Of a stretch of 64,000 nt of DNA, positions 45,267-48,264 are shown one piece after another (position 1 is the stretch's first letter; the number at the start of each line of letters is the position of its first letter). The stretch comes from Sedimentisphaerales bacterium (lineage in GTDB: Bacteria; Planctomycetota; Phycisphaerae; Sedimentisphaerales; Anaerobacaceae), in assembly GCA_016932835.1 (NCBI GenBank), contig JAFGCD010000017.1, positions 1-64,000 of the forward strand, read 5' to 3'. The notes below the pieces were generated by a model. The model was not told where the DNA came from and did no database searches. It was given only the letters and a program-made list of their open reading frames with translations. The translations under genes were made by a program, and so were the position numbers.

Positions 45267-46388
45267 ATGAAAAAGTATGCGGCGTTTTGTTTGACAGCGG
45301 GGCTGCTTCTAAGCAGCGGGGCCTTGGGGGCTATCACAGGGACGTTAACTCCCACCAGTATTGCTGAAGTTCACGATTTCGGCGAGACACGGACTTATAC
45401 TCTCGACTACTGCGTTGATATCAGCAGCGGTCTCGGCAAGGCCGATGTGCTCTTCCTGACAGACACCACTGCGAGTATGGGCGGTTATATTGACGGCATC
45501 AAGCTGGCCTTCGGCGGCATTATAACGAGCATCGATACGGAGCTTCCCGGGCTGGATATCGAGTACGGTGTGGCGGATTACAAGGACTATCTCGACGGCG
45601 GTTACTACTCAAGCTATGGCGTGAACGTCCGGCAACCTTTCACGAGCAATACGGGGGCGGCTCAATCGGCCATCAACGGGATGTACGCCATGGGCGGTTA
45701 TGATACACCGGAGGAGCAGTTAAAGGCGATGGTGAGCCTGGCGAACAACTGGCTGAATCCGTCGGGTCCCATAGGCTTGAACGGTCGTGCGGACGCTCAG
45801 AAGATTCTGATCTGGGCCGGGGACGCCGAGGGGCATTATTACGGCGGCGGCGGCGACGGACCGGACGATTACTACCCTTCGCTGAGCAATGCCCTGGCGG
45901 CGCTGAACAGCCAGGGGATTCTGACATTCGGCCTGAACACCAAGGGCGCCGGGGATGGAATCGACCTTGATCACGGTGGCGCAAACCAGGCGAGTTACCT
46001 GACAGAGAACACGGGCGGGCAACTTTTCAACAACGTCAGCTCGGCCAGTTCCGAGATTCAGGCGACCATTGTCGATGCGGTGACCGCGGGCGTTGAGGTT
46101 CTCAGCAATATCACGCTGGCACTTCAGAGCGACAGCTACTTCATCGTCGGCCCGATGAATCAGACGATCACGGGCTCATGGACTCCGGACGACAGTCCGG
46201 TATGCGGCAGTTTCGAGTTCGACGTTACCGCTCCGGAGACGGTATGTTCGATGGATTTCGAGGTTGTCCTGATGGGCAACGGGGCAGAACTGGACAGCAC
46301 AACGGTTCACGTGGAGACAGTTCCGGAACCGGCTACACTGCTGCTTCTGAGCTTAGGAGGGCTGGGGCTGGTGAGAAAACGCACTTAA
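45267..46388 (+). CDS. VWA-like domain protein with PEP-CTERM sorting signal
   Basis: Signal peptide; ADVLFLTDTTASMGGYIDGIK (MIDAS-like); C-term VPEPATLLLLSLGGLGLVRKRT. Confidence 0.85.
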   Translation: MKKYAAFCLTAGLLLSSGALGAITGTLTPTSIAEVHDFGETRTYTLDYCVDISSGLGKADVLFLTDTTASMGGYIDGIKLAFGGIITSIDTELPGLDIEYGVADYKDYLDGGYYSSYGVNVRQPFTSNTGAAQSAINGMYAMGGYDTPEEQLKAMVSLANNWLNPSGPIGLNGRADAQKILIWAGDAEGHYYGGGGDGPDDYYPSLSNALAALNSQGILTFGLNTKGAGDGIDLDHGGANQASYLTENTGGQLFNNVSSASSEIQATIVDAVTAGVEVLSNITLALQSDSYFIVGPMNQTITGSWTPDDSPVCGSFEFDVTAPETVCSMDFEVVLMGNGAELDSTTVHVETVPEPATLLLLSLGGLGLVRKRT

Positions 46389-46524: not shown

Positions 46525-46890
46525 TCAGCTTTTGAGGACCTTGAGGGCCTCCTTAATCCTGGTCTTGTCGCCGCGTTCGAGGGATCTGTCTATGCCCTTG
46601 TGGCTGCTGAGCCTCTGCAGGATGTCGGACAGGTCGTTCGGCAGGCCATGCCTGTCTTGTCCGAGGGTTTTGAGCAACCACCTTCCGCACTGCGCGACTG
46701 CATCCGGTGGTAATATTATTGCGGCGGCAACGTCGTTTTCGTGGGAGAACTCGATTTTGACGCCGTTGTTGCCCAAATCAGTAGCCGAGAACAAAAAGCC
46801 ATTCTGATACTGAAATCCGGGCAGTGAATTTCGGGCATAACTGACGACCTCACCCGTTTCCTTGGTTACGCCGTTGGTCAGTTCTATCAT
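46525..46890 (-). CDS. Hypothetical protein
   Basis: 121 aa, well-formed ORF, no family recognised. Confidence 0.5.
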   Translation of the reverse strand: MIELTNGVTKETGEVVSYARNSLPGFQYQNGFLFSATDLGNNGVKIEFSHENDVAAAIILPPDAVAQCGRWLLKTLGQDRHGLPNDLSDILQRLSSHKGIDRSLERGDKTRIKEALKVLKS

Positions 46891-47134
46891 AAGAATATCC
46901 TTTTCCAGCCTCCATCCCTGTTAAGGGGCGGACTCCAATACACCCTTGCAAGACAATAACAATCCGGCGATATTAACTATCGTCTCATCTATCGCCGATT
47001 CCGGCTTTTTGGCTACTTGTTTAGACGAGGCTGATCCGAGAATTATTGCAGAAATCTCAAAATAGCTTTTTTTTGGTCTAAACCGGGGGTTTTCTGTGCG
47101 TTGCACGGGTAAACCGCTCGATTTTCGAGTATTT

Positions 47135-47143
47135 TGCTATAAT
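47135..47143 (+). promoter_or_regulatory. Extended -10 promoter element for putative sRNA
   Basis: TGCTATAAT; no good -35 hexamer at 16-18 bp. Confidence 0.55.
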
Positions 47144-47149
47144 GGTGAA

Positions 47150-47285
47150 CTGTCTGTTTTGAACAGCCGTAGTAGAGGTAGTCAATATTGCCGAGAACTG
47201 TGGGCTGGGGGTGTTCTCGGCACCCCTCTCCTCCGCACTCCAGCCCACTCTTTTTGTATTACGGCCCATTCGGGCCTTTTTCTTG
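47150..47285 (+). ncRNA. Putative structured small RNA
   Basis: Starts about 7 nt after TATAAT. Stems CCGAGAAC(47191-47198)/GTTCTCGG(47213-47220) and GTGGGCTG(47200-47207)/CAGCCCAC(47241-47248) interleave. Ends in GGCCC-ATTC-GGGCC-TTTTTCTT. Confidence 0.5.
47263..47284 (+). terminator. Intrinsic terminator of putative sRNA
   Basis: GGCCC ATTC GGGCC TTTTTCTT. Confidence 0.75.
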
Positions 47286-47361
47286 CGCGGCTGAGCCAGA
47301 GGCTGTTGCAGCCTGTTTTTGCATTTGAGCAGGTATTGATCTATTGTCAGAGGCTGTTAGT

Positions 47362-48264
47362 TTACCTGGGGTCTTTTTTCTCAGGTTCGCGGACTCGGCC
47401 TGTCATGGGAACAAAGCGGACGGGCATTACTTTCTTTCTTGTAATGGTTCCGGTCTTGTCCTTTGTGAGGAGTTCGAGGTACTCATATCCAAGTTTTCCG
47501 GTGAGGGGCAGTATCATTTTTCCTCCGGGCTTTAGCTGGTCGAGCAAGGGCGCGGGGACTCGGCCTGCGGCGGCGGTTCCAATTACTGCGTCGAACGGGG
47601 CCTTTTCAGGCCATCCGAAATAACCGTCGCCCGCTTTGACGAACACGTTTCTGTAACCGAGCTTTTTTAGCTGTTTGGCGGCTGATTCTGCCAGTTCGGG
47701 TACTATCTCTATGGTATAAACCTCGCGTGCAATTTCTGCGCAGACTGCGGCCTGGTAGCCTGAGCCGGTTCCTATCTCGAGTACGGTGTCATTCGGGTCG
47801 AGGGCGAGGGCCTCTGTCATGAAGGCGACGATATATGGCTGGCTTATGGTCTGGCCTTGGCCGATGGGACGGGGCTGGTCTGTGTAGGCATAGGATTGTT
47901 GGCTTTTCGGAATAAGGGCGTGTCGCGGGACGATCCGCATTGCTTTGAGGACGTTCGGGTCTTTTACGCGACGAGCCTGAATCTGGGCGGCGACCATTTT
48001 TTGTCTCTCTCCGATGCGTTCTTCGAAGGCCGGATGCTTATGATCCGGGCGAAGGGGCCCGGGATCGTTTGGTTCTTCAGGGGTCCGACCGTCCTGCCCG
48101 GAGCGGCTGTCGGATGATTTGTCGGAGGCGGAAGCGGCAGCGGCGCCGCCGGAGTCCTGACAGCCGACAAGGGCTGCGACAACTGCAATCAGCACTGCGA
48201 ATGAGGCGAGGCATACGAGCAAAGAGGATTTTTTTCCGGGCTTTTTTCGATGTTTTGCGTACAT
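47362..48264 (-). CDS. pcm: Protein-L-isoaspartate O-methyltransferase with lipoprotein-type signal peptide
   Basis: MVAAQIQARRVKDPNVLKAMRIVPRHALIP...GQTISQPYIVAFMTEAL...VLEIGTGSGYQAAVCAEI; N-term LASFAVLIAVVAALVGC lipobox. Confidence 0.9.
   Translation of the reverse strand: MYAKHRKKPGKKSSLLVCLASFAVLIAVVAALVGCQDSGGAAAASASDKSSDSRSGQDGRTPEEPNDPGPLRPDHKHPAFEERIGERQKMVAAQIQARRVKDPNVLKAMRIVPRHALIPKSQQSYAYTDQPRPIGQGQTISQPYIVAFMTEALALDPNDTVLEIGTGSGYQAAVCAEIAREVYTIEIVPELAESAAKQLKKLGYRNVFVKAGDGYFGWPEKAPFDAVIGTAAAGRVPAPLLDQLKPGGKMILPLTGKLGYEYLELLTKDKTGTITRKKVMPVRFVPMTGRVREPEKKDPR

Follow-up and report, generated by a model that had tools for sequence, protein, structure and literature searches.

A predicted multi-copy family of self-terminating small RNAs with an anti-Shine-Dalgarno-like loop in Phycisphaerae

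The locus and its sequence elements

We analyzed a 64,000-nucleotide stretch of DNA from a Sedimentisphaerales bacterium (hereafter the window). Between two genes on the minus strand it holds a plus strand region with the following features, numbered from the first letter of the window:

46525..46890, minus strand: divergent gene for a ~120-aa unknown protein, adjoining the small RNA in all four orthologous loci
47147..47150, plus strand: GAAC, -35 element of a predicted ECF-sigma-type promoter, kept in all four orthologous loci
47168..47173, plus strand: CGTAGT, -10 element of the same predicted promoter, as GAAC-N17-CGTA in all four orthologous loci
47180..47255, plus strand: predicted small RNA (sRNA) of ~70-76 nt, delimited by the promoter position, the T-run and the block that the orthologues share; its start may shift by several nt
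47189..47198, plus strand: 5' arm of helix S1 (TGCCGAGAAC), complementary to 47213-47222, confined to the window copy and its three orthologues
47200..47210, plus strand: 5' arm of terminator stem S2 (GTGGGCTGGGG), with family-wide covariation
47213..47222, plus strand: 3' arm of S1 (GTTCTCGGCA), within the hairpin loop; its UCUCG motif also occurs in loops of copies without the 5' arm
47226..47234, plus strand: anti-Shine-Dalgarno-like loop motif CTCTCCTCC, with CCTCC at 47230-47234; predicted unpaired probability 0.91-1.0
47238..47248, plus strand: 3' arm of S2 (CTCCAGCCCAC), with family-wide covariation
47249..47255, plus strand: T-run TCTTTTT right after S2, the predicted 3' end; a T-run lies 3' of the stem family-wide
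47263..47284, plus strand: second intrinsic-terminator-like hairpin; the three orthologues also have a stem-loop in this position
47362..48264, minus strand: pcm, protein-L-isoaspartate O-methyltransferase (PF01135, E=1.1e-61), convergent with the sRNA

A preliminary description of this region had proposed an unannotated structured RNA of about 135 nt, folded as an H-type pseudoknot with a possible conformational switch. All the sequence elements that it named were found at their coordinates by direct inspection of the stretch, namely a TATAAT-type extended -10 (TGCTATAAT, 47135-47143), helix S1 (CCGAGAAC/GTTCTCGG, 10 bp, 47189-47198 with 47213-47222), helix S2 (GTGGGCTG/CAGCCCAC), which extends to 11 bp including one G-U and the flanking G-C pairs (47200-47210 with 47238-47248), an inner GGGGTG/CACCCC hairpin, and the hairpin GGCCC-ATTC-GGGCC-TTTTTCTT (47263-47284). 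The two crossing helices are indeed present, at 10 and 11 bp. When 47150-47290 was shuffled 1000 times with its dinucleotides preserved, perfect helices of 8 bp turned up in 7.4% of the shuffles, and a crossing pair of them in none. The fold z-score of the region is -2.36. The plus strand RNA does not serve the converging pcm gene, as had been stated.

That the RNA could not be assigned to 6S, SRP, tmRNA or a known riboswitch agrees with our searches. Rfam 15 returned only two tRNAs over the whole window at the gathering threshold, and a scan of the region at lax threshold gave no plausible match. A search of the literature found no paper on the family described below.

Conservation and distribution of the sRNA family

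The core of the RNA was matched by BLAST, at 82-89% identity, in three other genomes: the remaining two of its genus, and one from a different genus in the same taxonomic family. The suggestion that the plus strand carries a structured sRNA gene which had escaped annotation is supported. The neighboring ~120-aa protein has no Pfam match over cut-off; its gene is found in 25 of 89 genomes of the family, only four of which carry the sRNA within 1.5 kb, and an obligate pairing of the two was accordingly rejected.

Two weaker BLAST matches lack S1 and share the S2 stem, which differs in them by two double compensatory changes. From these six sequences (the window copy, three orthologues and two weaker matches) we built a covariance model, R1, which matches 82 of the 89 genomes in the taxonomic family to which the host belongs (class Phycisphaerae, Planctomycetota). 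A second model, R2, built from 109 matches, finds 85 of the 89, mostly with several copies per genome and up to 14; the host genome has six, the window copy and five siblings. When 398 genomes from across the class were sampled, 42 positives were members of this family and one weak positive lay outside it. An exact-pattern scan of GTDB genomes returned 63 stretches, and the titles of nearly all of them name Planctomycetota, Phycisphaerae or Sedimentisphaerales. Two stretches titled otherwise also carry the RNA (L200, CP070751.1, Thermoplasmata archaeon; L180, JAUXBO010000254.1, Candidatus Zixiibacteriota), where titles or bins may be wrong. Copies keep their synteny across genera. On the basis of these sequence comparisons, 47180-47255 (plus strand) is one copy of a multi-copy, previously uncatalogued family of predicted sRNAs.

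A wider spread into a sister family (f2) was discarded: its four matching genomes hold mostly plain terminators, some of them GGGCTG/CAGCCC. Two loops of terminator-like hairpins there have CTCCTCC or TTCCTCCC (L213 and L215, around position 1500) and are possibly a distant or parallel form.

Copies within the family often stand in tandem, two or three within 150-450 bp (L073, L075, L077, L078, L079, L082, L119, L139, L142), and tandem copies commonly adjoin a convergent terminase-like gene (PF17289, just under cut-off) that is conserved across genera.

Neighboring strands were counted from mechanically picked ORFs, so that the following numbers are approximate: the nearest upstream ORF lies on the opposite strand in 63 of 103 cases, and the nearest downstream ORF in 76 of 99. 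With most downstream genes thus facing the other way, the sRNA is not a cis-regulatory leader.

The S2 hairpin and the 3' end

Over 107 distinct sequences, 97.2% of the cells of the S2 alignment are paired, an alignment that was fitted to the S2 model and thus leans towards it, and that includes one antisense match. Two-sided changes occur at 7 of the 11 pairs (114 such cells vs 26 shuffled), and covariation exceeds that of all shuffles and all slid controls, the latter being 25-58% paired. The covariation check on relatives thus strongly supports S2.

Directly 3' of the stem, 102 of the 109 copies have five or more T within 8 nt, compared with 19 in flanks 30 nt further on, and the family's hairpins show the GC-rich stem and following T-run of an intrinsic terminator. 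Because the T-run stands directly 3' of the stem family-wide, the S2 hairpin is predicted to be the sRNA's own terminator. The window RNA would then most likely end at 47255, upstream of the 47263-47284 hairpin. The latter had been taken for the 3' end of the RNA; the hairpin exists, but the family-wide position of the T-run after the 11-bp stem moves the predicted end to ~47255. Orthologues keep the position of the downstream hairpin with other sequence, and it is probably a backup terminator.

The predicted promoter and the start of the RNA

Promoters read by ECF sigma factors are marked by AAC in the -35 and CGT in the -10 element (PMC8103513). This combination, at a fixed spacing, is present as GAAC-N17-CGTA in the window copy and its three orthologues. 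Across the family, GAAC-N16/17-CGTW lies upstream of 27 of 106 members, compared with 0.4 expected from shuffles, mostly 17-25 nt 5' of the stem; the spacer is 16 in 13 cases and 17 in 14, the neighboring values 15 and 18 have none, and other spacings give strays only. The TATAAT site that had been proposed as the promoter exists as sequence, but only in the window; the three orthologues lack it, and the motif that all four loci share is GAAC-N17-CGTA. We infer from the conserved promoter motif and the T-run that a shorter RNA, ~47180-47255, would be expressed in place of the ~135-nt transcript. Its start would be at ~47176-47185, a position that is uncertain because the distance from promoter to stem is 8-9 nt longer in the window than in the orthologues.

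The five other copies in the host genome do not have the ECF motif. Two of these have TTGCNN-TATAAT sites scoring at least 9/12, and the rest have weaker look-alikes by eye. Sigma-70-like sites precede 31 of the 79 family copies without the ECF motif (10 expected). Sigma70_r4_2 has 35 matches in the host genome, and the 32 that exceed the cut-off are consistent with many ECF factors in this host. In the host genus, copies of the sigma-70-like subtype (L068, L069, L087, L090) recur near a family of secreted proteins (cluster F6) whose tail is PEP-CTERM-like.

We also considered that these are plain intrinsic terminators or 3' UTR hairpins, repeated in the genome by chance, and not sRNA genes. 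A hairpin followed by a T-run is a good terminator, and some f2 matches are just that; however, the copies have promoter motifs of their own at a fixed distance, their upstream gene is frequently on the opposite strand (63/103), and the loop keeps its sequence from genus to genus, something that termination would not call for. We regard this explanation as very improbable.

Helix S1, the pseudoknot and the switch

Only the window copy and its three orthologues, 4 of 108 sense copies, have the S1 arm, and variation among the four is a single C-G to U-G exchange. Outside these orthologues, leader-loop pairing is no better than with shuffled leaders, and the pseudoknot was rejected as a family-wide feature. 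Regarding the H-type pseudoknot of the preliminary description, the crossing helices are there and S2 has strong covariation; the one C-G to U-G change in S1 is compatible with its pairing, short of a proof. A pseudoknot at the window locus is, from the sequence, a possibility. Nearest-neighbor energies are -15.8 kcal/mol for S1 alone, -13.4 for the 8-bp S2 and -21.6 for the 11-bp S2, and on account of these a pseudoknot of S1 with the 8-bp S2 could compete with the full S2. By A-form geometry S1 and the full S2 would be mutually exclusive, because a loop 1 of 1 nt is too short to span 11 bp, while the 8-bp S2 would be compatible. The suggested conformational switch drew no direct support: the inner GGGGUG/CACCCC helix is replaced by GGGAAG/CUUCCC in one orthologue and is mismatched in the other two, so it is kept in one and broken in two.

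The original model, a ~135-nt pseudoknotted RNA that runs from the TATAAT to 47284 and switches conformation, can be weighed on these results. Every motif is present, the crossing helices are beyond chance and all four orthologues have retained the S1 arm. Set against this are the lack of conservation of TATAAT, a 5' third (47150-47185) that is poorly conserved compared with the core, a loop 1 that could span the 8-bp but not the 11-bp S2, and the rest of the family, which does without S1. We consider it an unlikely account of the locus.

The conserved loop

Family-wide, C makes up 45% and U 37% of the loop. CCTCC occurs in 104 of the 109 loops, where its predicted probability of being unpaired averages 0.98, and the CCUCC(G) core varies less than the remainder of the loop. 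The window loop carries CUCUCCUCCGC and most other copies CUCUCCCUCCGC. The loop can be kept on a different stem: in one chromosomal copy (G016:C77) the stem is swapped to CCCTGTGG.../...CCACAGGGG, and on a viral contig to CGGCCCGG.../...CCGGGCCG. CCUCC is the core of the anti-Shine-Dalgarno (anti-SD) tail of 16S rRNA; the loop was compared with the general anti-SD sequence only, the 16S tail GGATCACCTCCTTT not being found in the host's draft genome.

The loop sequence is also present on four IMG/VR contigs, each time on the minus strand (L211:1511-1576, L212:10497-10562, L248:1786-1808 and L249:1364-1387). In L211 and L212 the whole hairpin is followed by tRNA-Met and preceded by an apparent truncated start of a DNA methyltransferase gene. 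In L248 the same 25-nt loop sits on an unrelated stem, ~180 nt from an integrase-like ORF. These matches may be either phage-borne copies or attachment sites within the sRNA gene. They could also be read to mean that the element acts as DNA, being either an attachment site for phages or a palindromic repeat that moves, with no RNA gene, and the integrase-like ORF close to one of them fits this idea. Yet the T-run and promoter are strand-asymmetric, copies are syntenic across genera, and the changes in the stem preserve pairing, which identity at the DNA level does not require. We find this reading extremely improbable, and use as an attachment site, if real, would be secondary.

A further alternative accepts a real RNA and has the loop bind a protein, such as a pyrimidine binder of the cold-shock, KH or S1 type, as a sponge or scaffold and not as an SD antisense. 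CCUCC sits in a generally C/U-rich context, and sponge RNAs are typically multi-copy with near-identical loops, as is the case here. However, a core that varies less than its surroundings in the loop, in a host genome that uses SD sites, argues for pairing, and we judge protein binding to be unlikely.

Proposed function

We think it fairly likely that the locus encodes a stand-alone, ECF-driven, self-terminated sRNA whose anti-SD loop would block, in trans, the translation of mRNAs led by GGAGG-type sites. An ECF sigma factor would probably transcribe 47180-47255, and the 11-bp terminator stem would hold up a C/U-rich loop of 25-30 nt. Within it, CUCUCCUCC would mimic the anti-SD tail of 16S rRNA and pair with GGAGG-type ribosome-binding sites of target mRNAs, thereby blocking translation. 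The six sibling genes of the host genome have similar loops and different promoters, and several signals could thus feed one class of targets.

Suitable SD sites exist in the host, since a strong SD stands near the start of 16 of 42 long window ORFs, compared with 4 in the control. Duplex energies calculated within the window indicate that SD-bearing start regions can pair with the loop, and no more than that. One window gene (45267-46388, plus strand), whose PEP-CTERM product weakly matches von Willebrand A, is preceded by a GGAGG-type SD with -14.4 kcal/mol against the sRNA loop; it is a candidate target by proximity and SD only. Hfq was not found in any of 21 genomes searched; the control was positive in 5 of 14.

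Discussion

RybB and MicA of enterobacteria are sigma-E-dependent sRNAs that pair through 5'-end seeds with Hfq. The sRNA described here resembles them in being short, with an ECF-type promoter and an expected repression of translation, but its seed would be the terminator loop, without known Hfq. In Staphylococcus aureus, sRNAs with C-rich loops (UCCC motif) pair with SD regions independently of Hfq. A C-rich loop and an Hfq-independent pairing with SDs, proposed in the present case, are common to both, whereas phylum, sequence and architecture differ and there is no homology.

The closest resemblance is to the alpha-r14 (NfeR1) and cuckoo (CcsR) sRNAs of Alphaproteobacteria, in which an ultraconserved anti-SD CCUCCUCCC is unpaired while the stems vary; they occur in several copies with stress-related promoters, and their CCUCCUCCC loops silence mRNAs at the start of translation (PMC10746234, PMC10253847). 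Here, too, an anti-SD motif lies in a loop predicted to be unpaired, and by analogy with these RNAs the sRNA should repress the translation of SD-led mRNAs. In contrast to them, the exact CCUCCUCCC is absent, the loop having CUCUCCUCC or CUCUCCCUCC; there is one hairpin per gene, which is also the terminator, instead of the three motif hairpins per RNA of alpha-r14; each gene has its own promoter and is not part of a co-transcribed array behind a DUF1127 gene; and the host belongs to Planctomycetota, with no Hfq found in 21 genomes. Neither Rfam threshold, gathering or lax, pointed to homology with alpha-r14 or cuckoo RNAs. The resemblance would be in mode of action, common ancestry being a separate matter. 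Since no Rfam family and no paper were found, we describe it as a new sRNA family, predicted to act like the known anti-SD-loop kind and without the specific features of alpha-r14 and cuckoo.

Planctomycetota have very few known sRNA families; for the PVC group as a whole, a survey from 2022 counted eight distinct sRNAs (PMC9029176). The present one occurs in nearly every genome of a taxonomic family with dozens of genera. More tentatively, and with real doubt, the siblings might form a family-wide, Hfq-independent network, in which a fixed anti-SD loop under diversified promoters (sigma-70-like and ECF-type) would channel many signals into one translational block, the pseudoknot of one sub-lineage could gate the seed, and some phages would carry the loop. 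If confirmed, our findings would place the anti-SD-loop strategy far from Proteobacteria, in bacteria where no Hfq was found. The family gives a concrete seed, promoter and terminator to test, and offers a natural series of constant loops with changing stems and promoters.
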